From Oceanicaulis sp. (lineage in GTDB: Bacteria; Pseudomonadota; Alphaproteobacteria; Caulobacterales; Maricaulaceae), in assembly GCA_028280165.1 (NCBI GenBank), contig JANQMI010000177.1, forward strand, positions 1 to 34,250: a stretch of 34,250 nucleotides of DNA. The letters are read 5' to 3'. This document shows, piece after piece, positions 647-9,300 of this stretch; position 1 is the stretch's first letter, and every line of letters begins with the position of its first letter. The notes under the pieces were generated by a model, which ran no database searches, was not told the DNA's origin, and saw only the letters and a list, made by a program, of their open reading frames with translations. The position numbers were made by a program, and so were the translations under genes.

Positions 647-1114
647 CTACTGGCTGGTGACTTCAGAAATATACAAAGTCGCCGACTGCAGGCTGGCGCT
701 GGCATAGGTGCCCACCCAGATGTCGTACTGGCCAGAGCCTGGATTAGAGAAGCGGTAAGACGGGTTCAGGCCATTGCCGCTGTCGTCATCGCAATACCAG
801 CGCCCGTCTGGGCCGTTGATCACCAATGTGGTGTCGCTGTCGGAATTCACCGAGAAGATCAGCGGGAAAGTCGAGCCAGCCGAATAATTCACCCGATAGT
901 CCGGTGCACTGGCCACGTAACCGCGGCAGCCCCCGCCCAAACCGGAGGCATCAATGCTGCCCCCTGAGCTCAGATTCACCGTGCGGGGATCATTGGTAAA
1001 ACCGGAATTCAAGCTGGTTGAGCCATAGGTGGGCGGCAGCGAGAAGTCCTGTGCAACTGCCGCTCCGGCAGTCAGTCCAGCAATCATAGTGCTCGCAGCA
1101 AGTCGTCGAAGCAT
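647..1114 (-). CDS. Small secreted single-repeat PPC-like protein
   Basis: MLRRLAASTMIAGLTAGAAVAQ signal peptide, then GSTSLNSGF..DPRTVNLSSGGSI...SDSDTTLVINGPDGRWYCDDD...SGQYDIWVGTY. Start placed at the internal Met (1114), which has a GGAGA-type RBS upstream; the ORF track start is 1132. Confidence 0.8.
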   Translation of the reverse strand: MLRRLAASTMIAGLTAGAAVAQDFSLPPTYGSTSLNSGFTNDPRTVNLSSGGSIDASGLGGGCRGYVASAPDYRVNYSAGSTFPLIFSVNSDSDTTLVINGPDGRWYCDDDSGNGLNPSYRFSNPGSGQYDIWVGTYASASLQSATLYISEVTSQ

Positions 1115-1207
1115 GTGGGTCTCCTTCCCCAAAAGGTGTCAGTCCCGTTCAAACCGGGCATTCAATGTGCCGGGCCACAGCCTTGCGGCCCGGAGGTCGG
1201 TCAAGGC

Positions 1208-2143
1208 TTACTTCCCGCTCGGGCCGTGGCCGAGCGCGATTTCGGAAATGCGTAGCGTGGTGCCTTGGCTGCCTTGTGAATACGTCCCGACATAAATGTC
1301 GTAGATCCCGCTGGTGCCCGGCGGGAAGCTGATCCCGGCATCGGTGCCATCGGCATCATCATTGCAGCGCCAATTCCCGTTCGGATCATTGATCGCCAGC
1401 GTCGTATCGGCCGACCCGGAGGTGTAGATATGCAGGTCGCTGGACCCCGAATAATTCAGCTGCAGGGTCGGCTCGGCGGTAATGTAGCCATTGCAGTAAT
1501 CGCCGGAGCTGATGGCGCTATTGGCGCTGATCGATCCCCCCGCCATCACCGAAATCTGGTGCGGGTCCGGCAGATAGCCGCCATACAGATCCACATTGCC
1601 ATACCGGGCGGGTAGGCTGATATCGACGCCCGAGCGCACCGCATATCCGCCCAGGCCCTGGCCGGCGCGGGTGTGTTCGCCGATTTCGGAGATGAACAGG
1701 GTGGCCGGAACGCCTGCGCCTGACGAATAGGTCCCAACCCAGACGTCGTAACGGCCCGATTGCGGATTATCAAACCGCACCAACGGGTTCAAAGGCTCCG
1801 CTGCGCCATCATCGTCGCAATACCAGCTGGTGTCGGGTCCATTGATGACCAGGGTCGTGTCGCTATCGGAATCCACGCTGAAAATCAGCGGAAAGCCACT
1901 GCCAGCGGTGTAATAGACCGAGAAATCGGGCGCATTGGCGATCGAGCCCCGGCAGCTTGAAAACCGGGTCTCAGCCCGGATCGAGCCGCCTGCGGTCAGC
2001 GTGCGCACCTGCGGATCGGGAATAAAGCCGGCTTCTAGCGTGATCGAGCCAAAAGCTGGCGCTTCGGTATAATCCTGCGCGGTCGCAGCCGATCCGGCGG
2101 CAAGCGCACAGAGTCCGGCTGTGAGATAAGAAAGTGTTTTCAT
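1208..2143 (-). CDS. Secreted protein with two tandem PPC-like repeats
   Basis: MKTLSYLTAGLCALAAGSAATAQ signal peptide. Two copies of the repeat, with DSDSDTTLVINGPDTSWYCDDD...YDVWVGTY and GSADTTLAINDPNGNWRCNDD...YDIYVGTY. Confidence 0.82.
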   Translation of the reverse strand: MKTLSYLTAGLCALAAGSAATAQDYTEAPAFGSITLEAGFIPDPQVRTLTAGGSIRAETRFSSCRGSIANAPDFSVYYTAGSGFPLIFSVDSDSDTTLVINGPDTSWYCDDDGAAEPLNPLVRFDNPQSGRYDVWVGTYSSGAGVPATLFISEIGEHTRAGQGLGGYAVRSGVDISLPARYGNVDLYGGYLPDPHQISVMAGGSISANSAISSGDYCNGYITAEPTLQLNYSGSSDLHIYTSGSADTTLAINDPNGNWRCNDDADGTDAGISFPPGTSGIYDIYVGTYSQGSQGTTLRISEIALGHGPSGK

Positions 2144-5257: not shown

Positions 5258-6001
5258 ATGTCTGAGATACAGCGTCTAGACCGCGGGGACGGCCACCAAA
5301 TCGCCTATGTGAAACACGCCGGTGAGGGCCCGACCGTGGTCTTTCTGGGCGGCTTTCGCTCCGACATGACGGGCACCAAAGCCATGCATCTCGATGCCTG
5401 GGCGCGGGACGCGGGGCGGTCCTTCCTGCGCTTTGACTATTTTGGCCATGGCCAATCCAGCGGGGACTGGGCGGACGCCACCATCACCCGCTGGCGCGAC
5501 GATACGCTCGCCGCGCTGGACCAGCTCACCGACGGCCCGCTCGTGCTGGTAGGCTCATCCATGGGCGGATGGATGGCGCTTCTGGCCGCGATGGACCGGC
5601 CAGACCGCGTCCAAGCCCTTGTGCTGATCGCCCCTGCAGCGGATTTCACCGAAGCCCTGATGTGGGAGCAATTTCCGTTGCATATTCGCGAAGCCATTGA
5701 CACCGACGGCGTCTGGATGGCCCCCAGCGCTTATGGCGATCCCTATCCGATCACCAAAGCCCTGATCGAAGATGGCCGCCAATGGTCGATCCTGAACGCG
5801 CCCATCCCGGTAACCTGCCCCATCGAAATTATCCAGGGTTATGCCGATCCGGATGTGCCCTGGACCCATGCGATGCGCACGGTGGATGCGTTGGATAGTC
5901 CGGACATCACGATCACGCTGACCAAATCCGGCGATCACCGGTTATCGGGCGAGGCGGATCTGGCGCGGTTGGTGGAGGCGGTGGAGCGGGTCTCGCGCTA
6001 G
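5258..6001 (+). CDS. Alpha/beta hydrolase
   Basis: FLRFDYFGHGQSSGDW...LVLVGSSMGGWMALLAA (nucleophile elbow GSSMGG)...GYADPDVPW...SGDHRLS. RBS GAAAGGA upstream of ATG 5258. Confidence 0.9.
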   Translation: MSEIQRLDRGDGHQIAYVKHAGEGPTVVFLGGFRSDMTGTKAMHLDAWARDAGRSFLRFDYFGHGQSSGDWADATITRWRDDTLAALDQLTDGPLVLVGSSMGGWMALLAAMDRPDRVQALVLIAPAADFTEALMWEQFPLHIREAIDTDGVWMAPSAYGDPYPITKALIEDGRQWSILNAPIPVTCPIEIIQGYADPDVPWTHAMRTVDALDSPDITITLTKSGDHRLSGEADLARLVEAVERVSR

Positions 6002-6202
6002 CCCGCAGGGACGCCCGCTCGGATTTCAGCGAGGTGATTGCGCTCGGCCTCCAATCCCGCTCCGCCCCGCTGACCTGCAGGGCCTTTAAGCGTGACCACC
6101 GTCATGTCGGGGTGAGCCCTCCCTCAACACCCCGCCTGCGACCTTCAGCTCTGGCCTCGATTGGACGGATGGCGCGACACCACCCCGCCACGGACGGCGA
6201 TC

Positions 6203-6222
6203 ACGAATGAGCGTTCACTCCA
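6203..6222. repeat. Palindrome copy 1 (acgaatgagc|gttcactcca)
   Basis: Divergent copy of GTGAGTGAGC|GCTCACTCAC. Confidence 0.7.
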
Positions 6223-6294
6223 GTGCCGTTGGCGCGGGCGTCAGCACCGGCCCAGTTTTAACGCGCTGCCATAACAGGTCCCAGACCCATCCGG

Positions 6295-6314
6295 GTGAGT
6301 GAGCGTTCACTCAT
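6295..6314. repeat. Palindrome copy 2 (gtgagtgagc|gttcactcat)
   Basis: Two mismatches to the 20-mer. Confidence 0.85.
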
Positions 6315-6640
6315 AAGAGCCTTGTCGTGAGCCTTTTGGGAGCCTTGAGCTCTGTGCCTTGGGGCGGTGTGGAATTGGGGTTGGGCGTGCGGGACTAGGG
6401 TTCAAGGCTCAAGTTTGGGGCCCGAGACTAGGGTTCGAGGTTCAATGTTCAAGGCTCGGTGCCCAACCCGATTGGTGTCGTCCTGCGCTCTGGAGCGGGC
6501 GTGTTCAGCCCTCACTTGGGGCCTCGACGCAGGCGTGTGGCGGTCACTCAACGCGGCATGTTGCCAGTGCGGCAACGCCCACACCCAAACGGGCACAGGC
6601 CGAACGAGACACAGTTCGAACGAGACACAGGCCGACCTTT

Positions 6641-6660
6641 GTGAGTGAGCGCTCACTCAC
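6641..6660. repeat. Palindrome copy 3 (gtgagtgagc|gctcactcac), perfect
   Basis: Exact 20-bp self-reverse-complement. Confidence 0.95.
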
Positions 6661-6914
6661 CCTGCTTTGCGTGGGGCCTTCTTAGAACCTTGAGCTCTGT
6701 GCTCCGGGCGTGCGGGAATGGAGTCATGGCCGAAGGCTGAGTGTTTGGGGCTCAGGTCTCAATCCCAGTGGTCCTTCACCAAGCGCTCTGTGATCGACGC
6801 TTCAGCCCTCCCCTGGAGCCTTCTCGAAGGCGGGTTGCGGTCACTCAAGGCGGCATAGGGCGAGGCCGGCAAAATAGCGGGCGTGGGGCCAAAACAGGGC
6901 GCAGCTCGACCTTG

Positions 6915-6934
6915 GTGGGTGAGCGCTCACTCAT
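6915..6934. repeat. Palindrome copy 4 (gtgggtgagc|gctcactcat)
   Basis: Two mismatches to the 20-mer. Confidence 0.9.
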
Positions 6935-7227
6935 GAAAGCCTTGCTGAGAGCTTTTCCGAGCTTTGAGGTCTGCGCCTTGGGGTGTGGGGCGGGAAATGC
7001 GGCTTCAGGGTTCAAGGCTCAAGTCTTGAGCGCAGTCTACCGTTCAGGGTTGAGAGTTCAGGGCTTGACCTTCAATCCCAATGGGTCTCGCCAAGCGCTC
7101 TGGCGCGCGCGCTCAGCCCCCCGTGGACCCCCACGCAGGGGGCAAAGCCATTTAAGGATGCATATTGCCAATGCGGCAACGCCCACATCCAAACGGGCAC
7201 GGCCCGAATGGGTACAGACCGACCTTT

Positions 7228-7247
7228 GTGAGTGAGCGCTCACTTAC
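7228..7247. repeat. Palindrome copy 5 (gtgagtgagc|gctcacttac)
   Basis: One mismatch to the 20-mer. Confidence 0.92.
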
Positions 7248-7445
7248 TTTGAGGTTGGCTCCTATCCGTTCGCGGATGAAAACTAGAGCGTTGAGCGGGG
7301 AGGCTGGATCGCCGGAGGGGTGTTTTTTGGCGCTTAAGGCTCTGTGTTTGGAGCTTTGGTTTCAGAGCGCCCGTCCCAGGTCGAAGTGGCTCAGCGCACG
7401 AGGCTTGGCGACCTGCCGACCGCCTCCAGCAATCCATGCAAGCCA

Positions 7446-7465
7446 GTGAGTGAACGCTCACTCAC
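7446..7465. repeat. Palindrome copy 6 (gtgagtgaac|gctcactcac)
   Basis: One mismatch to the 20-mer. Confidence 0.92.
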
Positions 7466-7550
7466 TTAGGCGGGTCTCTGCTTCTGCCGACGTGACGATC
7501 GGGGTGCGAGGTTTAGGGATCAGGCCGGGGTGGCCGGAGGTCTGGGCCCT

Positions 7551-7718
7551 GAGCTTCAGGCGTAGAGCTTCAGGCCCGGAGTTCAAGCCCAGATCTCAAG
7601 ACCCATAGTTCGAGGCTTGGCGTTCATGGCCAGGAGCTCTAGGCCTGGCGTTCTGGATCGGGGGCTCAGGGTTCGGCGTCCACAACTCAGGGCTCTGCCG
7701 CCCCCGTTCAACGTCAAA
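7551..7718. repeat. Degenerate 14-bp tandem repeat, about 12 units without indels
   Basis: Consecutive 14-mers: gagcttcaggcgta/gagcttcaggcccg/gagttcaagcccag/atctcaagacccat/agttcgaggcttgg/cgttcatggccagg/agctctaggcctgg/cgttctggatcggg/ggctcagggttcgg/cgtccacaactcag/ggctctgccgcccc/cgttcaacgtcaaa. Confidence 0.75.
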
Positions 7719-7798
7719 GGGCTTATACCGCGCCGTCTCTAACCCCGCATAAGCCTGGTCCTAATGACGCCGCCAGATCCCGTCGCAGACGACCATTC

Positions 7799-7818
7799 GT
7801 GAGTGAGCGCTCACTCAT
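7799..7818. repeat. Palindrome copy 7 (gtgagtgagc|gctcactcat)
   Basis: One mismatch to the 20-mer. Confidence 0.92.
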
Positions 7819-7930
7819 GGATGGGGCGGGCACCTAGTCTTGCGCGGACGAATCCTCGCGCGCGGCGCGACTTGGGGGCGGCGGTGGAGCGGGTTTGGCG
7901 TTCGCGGGCGAAGCTGTATCGGCGTGGAAC

Positions 7931-8464
7931 CTAGGCCTTGGCCTTGACGGCCTTGCGCCAGGCGCGAAGGTCAGCGCCATGATTGAGCAGCGCGGCCATC
8001 GCCTCTTGAACGCGTTTGGTTCGCGTCGGGGCTGTTTTGGCGGCGCGCACATGTTGGGCCAGCATCCGCTTTTTGCCCGGTGTCAGCGCCTCCCAAAGCC
8101 GGGTTGCGGCGTCTGACGCACGGACCGCATCGTTCAGCTCAACAGGCACATCGACATGGTCCTGATCTGCAATGCGAAAGCGCATTTCGACCGGGTCGCC
8201 GAGCTTGGCTCCGCTGCCCTTTAGAACGGCGGGTGCGACGATCACATAGTGCCGGCCGTCACCTGTGGGCATGAATGCATTCTCCACCGGCATGTCGGCA
8301 ATCTCCCCCTCAACCCGCAAGCGCGGATGTTTCGCCAGGGGCAGCCGCGCGCGGATGTCATCGGGGACCATGATCACGGTGTACCCAATGACCCGGTCTT
8401 TCCCGACGCCAAATCTCTCAAGTTCGGCTTCAAAAACGTAAGGGAAATATGGTGTGCCGGTCAT
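7931..8464 (-). CDS. DUF1905 / YdeI-OmpD-associated family protein
   Basis: YVFEAELERFG...VIMVPDDIRARLP...PRLRVEGEIADMPVENAFMPTGDGRHYVIV...LNDAVRASDAATRLWEALTPGKKRMLAQHVRAAKTAPTRTKRVQEAMAAL. Confidence 0.75.
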   Translation of the reverse strand: MTGTPYFPYVFEAELERFGVGKDRVIGYTVIMVPDDIRARLPLAKHPRLRVEGEIADMPVENAFMPTGDGRHYVIVAPAVLKGSGAKLGDPVEMRFRIADQDHVDVPVELNDAVRASDAATRLWEALTPGKKRMLAQHVRAAKTAPTRTKRVQEAMAALLNHGADLRAWRKAVKAKA

Positions 8465-8487
8465 GCGGCCTCCAGCGGCCCCTCACC

Positions 8488-9300
8488 CTAGTCGCGCAAC
8501 TCCAGCGTCACCGGGGCATGGTCGGACGGTTTTTCCCAGCTTCTGGTGTAGTCCCACACGCGGAAGGTGTCGCGGCCGCCAGTGAGAGCGGCGCTTTCGA
8601 GGGTGGGCGAGACCCAGATATGGTCCAGCCGCCGCCCTCGATTGGATTTCTTCCAGTCCCGGTTTCGATAGCTCCACCAGGTGAAGATTTTTTCCGGCTC
8701 CTCGATCAGCGCGCGGGCGACATCGATGAACTGGCCTGCATCGCGCACCCGGTCCAGGGCTTCGGTTTCCACCGGCGTGTGGGAGACGACTTTCAGCAAT
8801 TGCTTGTGGGACCACACATCATGTTCGCGTGGCGCGATATTCAGATCGCCGACGAGTACAATGTCTGAGCCGTCCTTGGCCCGGCTGGCGGCATAGCCTT
8901 CCAGCGTGTCCAGGAAGTCCAGCTTGTGTTTAAAGCGCGGATTGGTGTCGGGGTCCGGCTCATCGCCGCCGGCGGGGATGTAGAAATTCTGGATCTCTAC
9001 GCCATCGATCTTCACACGCTGAAACCGGGCCTCACCGCGCGGGCAGAGCGCGTCGTTTTCCAGCTCTTCGAGGGGCAGTTTCGATGCGATCGCGACACCA
9101 TGCATGCCCTTCTGACCCACAATAGCGATATGGGGATAGCCCATCTCTTCGAACGCCGCGCGGGGGAATTGATCGGGCAGGCATTTAATCTCCTGCAAGC
9201 AGATCACATCGGGATTGGCGTCTTCAGCCCACTGGGCCACCAGCGGATGGCGCATGCGGATCGAGTTGATATTCCAAGTCGCAATGGTGAGCGCGCCCAT
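8488..9300 (-). CDS. xth: Exodeoxyribonuclease III
   Basis: MGALTIATWNINSIRMRHPLV...PDVICLQEIKC...VLVGDLNIAPREHDVW...RRLDHIWVSPTLE...SDHAPVTLEL. Start set at internal Met 9300; the ORF-track extension to 9414 is not domain-like. Confidence 0.93.
   Translation of the reverse strand: MGALTIATWNINSIRMRHPLVAQWAEDANPDVICLQEIKCLPDQFPRAAFEEMGYPHIAIVGQKGMHGVAIASKLPLEELENDALCPRGEARFQRVKIDGVEIQNFYIPAGGDEPDPDTNPRFKHKLDFLDTLEGYAASRAKDGSDIVLVGDLNIAPREHDVWSHKQLLKVVSHTPVETEALDRVRDAGQFIDVARALIEEPEKIFTWWSYRNRDWKKSNRGRRLDHIWVSPTLESAALTGGRDTFRVWDYTRSWEKPSDHAPVTLELRD

Follow-up and report, generated by a model that had tools for sequence, protein, structure and literature searches.

Clusters of specific sites that draw a DNA-binding protein away from its targets are known in bacteria, datA being a cluster of decoy sites that titrates DnaA. 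Decoys have been studied extensively in synthetic circuits; natural arrays dedicated to a local repressor of bacteria have, to our knowledge, seldom been described. An autorepressed gene and its targets are expressed more strongly when decoy sites are present in engineered E. coli (PMC7505660), and TetR circuits are retuned by tetO arrays (PMC7686491). SlmA with its SBS sites and RefZ with its RBM sites are TetR proteins with non-promoter sites (PMC6657595). The palindrome array described here shares with decoy arrays and DNA sponges a promoter-free cluster of specific sites, able in principle to titrate an autoregulated protein. It differs from them in that its sites lie in degenerate repeats of ~300 bp, in that it is lineage-specific and in that titration is, in this case, a proposal.

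The window, that is the whole stretch of 34,250 nucleotides of Oceanicaulis sp. DNA that was analysed, is contig C48 of a 3.08-Mb assembly of 239 contigs (features in Table 1). All seven palindromes reported in the original prediction were recovered between 6203 and 7818 at the coordinates it gave, with spacings of 92, 346, 274, 313, 218 and 353 bp as first listed, and the copy at 6641 is the one perfect 20-bp self-complement. Six of the seven match GTGAGTGARCGYTCACTCAC with zero to two mismatches, in line with the earlier description of copies that mostly differ at one or two positions, and the copy at 6203 is decayed. This copy exceeds the three-mismatch limit of the motif scan and of the shuffle test, in which 100 dinucleotide-shuffled versions of the window gave a mean of 0.00 palindrome matches and a maximum of 0. 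The gap from 6002 to 7930 holds no credible gene and its flanks converge (hydrolase gene on the plus strand, OmdA/DUF1905 gene on the minus strand), as had been described. The array is also rightly said not to be a CRISPR, with spacings that range from 92 to 353 bp and spacers that are homologous to one another.

Table 1. Features of the palindrome array and its surroundings, in window coordinates.
Feature	Position	Strand	Basis
Alpha/beta hydrolase, left neighbour	5258..6001	+	Pfam PF12146/PF00561; orthologues, synteny
Insertion of 2.5 kb (array and OmdA gene) between hydrolase and xth	6002..8487	.	Synteny
Palindrome 1, decayed copy, ACGAATGAGCGTTCACTCCA	6203..6222	.	Repeat-family comparison
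Degenerate long repeat units carrying palindromes	6250..7869	.	Self-BLAST and unit alignment
Palindrome 2, operator-like, GTGAGTGAGCGTTCACTCAT	6295..6314	.	Motif scan
Palindrome 3, operator-like, perfect 20-bp self-complement, GTGAGTGAGCGCTCACTCAC	6641..6660	.	Motif scan
Palindrome 4, operator-like, GTGGGTGAGCGCTCACTCAT	6915..6934	.	Motif scan
Palindrome 5, operator-like, GTGAGTGAGCGCTCACTTAC	7228..7247	.	Motif scan
Palindrome 6, operator-like, GTGAGTGAACGCTCACTCAC	7446..7465	.	Motif scan
Palindrome 7, operator-like, GTGAGTGAGCGCTCACTCAT	7799..7818	.	Motif scan
Near-copy of hydrolase 3' end (5962-6002), 34 of 41 identical	7864..7905	.	Self-alignment
OmdA/DUF1905 (YdeI-like) gene, within insertion	7931..8464	-	Pfam PF13376, PF08922
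Exodeoxyribonuclease III (xth), right neighbour	8488..9297	-	NCBIfam TIGR00195, TIGR00633

Searches of the whole genome, with two mismatches at most, located 14 sites at four loci in the 3.1-Mb assembly. The three loci outside the window are on contigs C85 (three copies), C89 (three) and C226 (one, upstream of radA). As the assembly is a fragmented MAG, 90% complete, more sites may exist. Exact matches to the motif were found in one of 384 other genomes sampled across the class. Among viral contigs there were three isolated exact matches, none of them near a relative of the tetR gene found on C85, and the exact 18-mer had no mention in the literature searched. The suggestion that the copies might be a common REP or MITE scattered through the genome does not agree with these counts. 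The palindromes do resemble REP, BIME and MITE repeats in having been multiplied in intergenic DNA, but the many dispersed copies per genome that mark such families were not found, the motif being limited to four loci, and here the palindrome is a conserved operator. The genome scan that had been proposed at the outset did find sites clustered in arrays; it also found copies beyond the window locus, one set of them at a tetR promoter.

At this locus on C85, a plsC-type gene is followed by the motif copies, the tetR gene and a second plsC-type gene, with aspS alongside. The tetR product scores 59 bits against PF00440 (TetR_N; cut-off 24), and the three sites lie 66-200 bp upstream of the tetR start. 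In 12 of the 14 other genomes of the genus, motif copies 52-60 bp apart, usually exactly two, lie upstream of the orthologous tetR, and in 10 of these 12 the motif (two mismatches or fewer) is restricted to the tetR locus, save for one poor two-mismatch match in genome G097. All 13 tetR promoters examined have a TTGAC -35 element that abuts the distal operator and a -10-like hexamer 17-18 bp further on; thus, two operators flank the tetR promoter. Related palindromes are likewise placed at TetR homologues (49-62% identity) of Marinicauda, Glycocaulis and a Parvularculaceae MAG. Although 20 TetR_N proteins are encoded in the genome, the C85 tetR is the only one of their genes present among the four motif loci. 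The palindromes of the window are, very probably, copies of the operator of this genome's own C85 TetR, and the comparative evidence for that protein as the probable binder of the sites is strong. The likeness to TetR-type half-sites that had been pointed out from the window can be tied to a particular gene, the C85 tetR, with three promoter copies in an arrangement conserved through the genus. A different TetR gene from another genus of the family (loci L060, 2934-3540, and L061, 2771-3377) has similar promoter palindromes (TGAGTGAATGCTCACTCA), a warning that more than one TetR shares half-sites of this kind.

The promoter sites have the features of TetR autoregulatory operators of the tetO, FadR and FasR type, namely palindromes that flank the -35 and -10 elements of the regulator's own promoter and an adjoining lipid gene, here conserved across the genus. 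The array sites differ from such operators in having no recognizable promoter and in lying on contigs other than that of tetR. The original prediction held that copies upstream of a single TetR regulon would speak against a dedicated array. Copies do occur at one tetR promoter, but a separate, lineage-specific and promoter-free cluster exists as well, and the earlier interpretation is, overall, partly supported. The predicted fold of the C85 TetR (mean pLDDT 87.7) has the acyl-CoA- or lipid-sensing TetRs FadR, FasR, PfmR and AibR among its best matches, which, together with the plsC neighbours, suggests that acyl-CoA or another lipid may be its ligand. At the G097 tetR promoter (L056, 3796-4779), about nine operators are present, several of them in tandem units of ~71 bp. 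It is a further case of operator multiplication within the genus, this time at the home promoter.

Most palindromes of the window sit within degenerate repeat units of ~270-350 bp, which had been missed at first. In self-BLAST, 6268-6660 pairs with 6888-7247 (E 3e-52) and 6438-6931 with 6734-7244 (E 2e-23); the units differ in length and order. The flanks of palindrome 6 (7446) give at most a weak match to other units, in inverse orientation. Among the units, spacers are ~70-74% identical and palindromes ~94%. These identity counts are BLAST-based, in preference to an alignment of the units in which lenient gaps had inflated spacer identity (74-84%). Because the unit pairs are not independent, the Fisher tests for the two long self-alignments are to be read with that limit: operators were identical at 37 of 40 positions against 74% for spacers in one (P 0.004), and at 34 of 36 against 71% in the second (P 0.0009). 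When five array units are aligned together, conservation peaks at the operator, which ranks first among 152 windows of 20 columns, and the minimum number of substitutions per column is 0.25 in the operator vs 1.31. The palindromes are therefore slower to change than their spacers, a difference that has an ascertainment component, since units with a decayed palindrome are less noticeable. Such conservation is a sign of constraint on the site and is silent on which use of it has been selected. The fit of the array sites to the consensus equals or exceeds that of the sites at the home tetR promoter.

In G087, G092 and G093, the hydrolase gene and xth are direct neighbours that converge, with coding ends about 9-18 bp apart; the 2.5 kb that separates them here is an insertion. 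Searches of the 14 other genus genomes gave no match to the OmdA gene or to the array DNA, and the large array is present in this genome only. Comparison of the insertion with plasmid and phage collections gave no match. The hydrolase 3' end and its near-copy bracket the array as a direct repeat, possibly the trace of an insertion event. Elsewhere in the window (647-2143), adjacent genes that are apparently tandem paralogues encode secreted proteins that resemble one another and contain a repeated domain.

Similarly, the array on C89 occupies a gap of ~1.46 kb between an sdhAF4-like gene and a gene for a small secreted protein, a gap of ~0.1 kb in G092. Between the window and C89 arrays, alignment is limited to the operator and its close surroundings; CCGACC to the left of the site is common to units of both, and common descent of a core of ~40 bp is possible on these alignments. 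Beside the C89 operators (L017, 9560-10150) there is DNA of dispersed-repeat character, with two 107-bp copies that are 89% identical, and inverted repeats. On contig C19 of G093, the window and C89 loci, together with a solitary operator, are all contained in a stretch of 70 kb (308594-377505), so that the two arrays may lie near each other on the chromosome. The same contig has a parS-like site at about 200705, and examination of 378 kb of it gave no dnaA. In G087, an ORF of 592 amino acids lies between radA and alr (L045, 1668-3446), and three operators lie between the 3' end of this ORF and the convergent alr, the first of them overlapping the ORF stop codon.

The main rival to a regulatory use of the array is passive repeat amplification, in which operator-bearing DNA would have been carried into gene-free insertions and tandemly amplified in the manner of a satellite, with no function even if TetR binds. 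In its favour are the placement of the array in a lineage-specific insertion, the near-copy of the hydrolase 3' end that brackets it, the variable length and order of the units, the decay of the copy at 6203 and the presence of two sites only in most relatives. However, within the same units the rate of change was about five times lower in the palindromes than in the spacers, six of the seven palindromes were kept, the C89 array keeps the same site among different spacers, and operator number grew at the G097 tetR promoter too. We regard purely passive amplification as rather unlikely, though it deserves serious weight.

No -35-like box directly adjoins any of the 11 accessory sites, which agrees with the earlier view that no ordinary promoter operator is to be expected at the array. 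A scan of the gap for sigma-70-like promoters found none; the same scan missed the tetR promoter too, so its silence is weak. By looping, array-bound TetR could instead control OmdA, the hydrolase or some unseen transcript close by, or it could act as a roadblock between convergent genes, and a convergent context is indeed found here, at alr and the 592-aa ORF in G087 and at MarR/CcmG in G093. Against such control, the array lies at the 3' ends of both neighbours, where that promoter scan was negative, no Rfam match reached the gathering score in the gap, and the C89, radA and GST/AbgT sites are outside convergent gaps. A hit to a microRNA family was below the gathering score and was taken as chance. 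Looping or a roadblock is improbable on this evidence. The palindromes might also act as RNA hairpins, either terminators or processing sites; a stem of 8 bp with a four-base loop could form, and there is one weak terminator-like match, at 7228. Terminator-like matches are nevertheless rarer than in shuffled sequences (1 vs a mean of 2.8), and the placement of the motif around the -35 and -10 elements of tetR promoters points to a role at the DNA level, which makes hairpins a very remote explanation. The looping, roadblock and RNA-hairpin readings thus have little support.

A further reading is that the array is a landmark for a TetR protein in chromosome organization or division, as in SlmA with SBS and RefZ with RBM. 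The half-site of the palindrome resembles the SlmA site, GTGAGTACTCAC, several accessory sites are in convergent, promoter-free gaps, and the hydrolase locus maps 119-205 kb from dnaA in relatives with closed genomes. In closed relatives, however, radA is about 1.0-1.5 Mb and tetR 0.9-1.2 Mb from dnaA. Clustering near oriC, which had been put forward for checking, is accordingly no general rule, the hydrolase locus being origin-proximal and the radA and tetR loci distant. The C85 TetR scores 32.4 bits against the SlmA model NF007015 (cut-off 120) and 33 bits against the RefZ model (cut-off 180), and SlmA is absent from its top 50 fold matches. SlmA sites number in the dozens across the chromosome except ter, as against 14 sites at four loci here, and RBM sites hold conserved positions relative to oriC, whereas neither the array nor the accessory sites are conserved in the genus. 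In most members of the genus the sites are confined to the tetR promoter, which speaks against a conserved landmark role. Thus, the present system shares with SlmA and RefZ a TetR-fold protein and palindromic sites away from promoters, but its conserved sites are promoter operators and its accessory sites neither span the chromosome nor keep their positions between genomes. A landmark of this type is hardly probable. Caulobacter ZapT was considered as an analogue and rejected, being a MerR-type protein.

The reading that we favour, at a probability of roughly 0.45, is that the array is a natural DNA sponge that would titrate an autoregulated TetR. For a repressor that regulates its own gene, specific sites without promoters would most simply serve to titrate it. 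In the proposed mechanism, the tetR-plsC promoter is most likely repressed by its own product, the C85 TetR, whose ligand is perhaps acyl-CoA or another lipid. The TetR operator would have been multiplied in two separate gene-free insertions, with seven copies in the window and three on C89; one further site lies upstream of radA. Sites in the arrays would bind TetR dimers and lower the amount of free regulator, and with less free TetR, the autoregulated tetR-plsC operon would change in its expression level, threshold and noise. Binding, repression, ligand response and titration are steps that we infer from sequence comparison. The window and C89 arrays differ beyond the operator core and both keep that core, which argues for a sponge. 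On the other side, ~11 spare sites would be few if the regulator is abundant, the large array is in one genome only, and comparisons between pairs of units are not independent of one another. In a wider form, which we hold tentatively and at slightly less than the sponge itself, a second, non-promoter set of sites for a TetR lipid regulator would have arisen by tandem amplification within gene-free insertions and been kept by selection as a repressor sink or a chromosomal landmark.

Close relatives appear to retain the ancestral state of two promoter sites, so that the effect of ~11 extra operators on a lipid operon would be measurable. If the sites prove to be unoccupied or neutral, they would be a good example of operator-like arrays that arise without function. 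If the proposal is true, operator arrays would have arisen de novo in one bacterial lineage.
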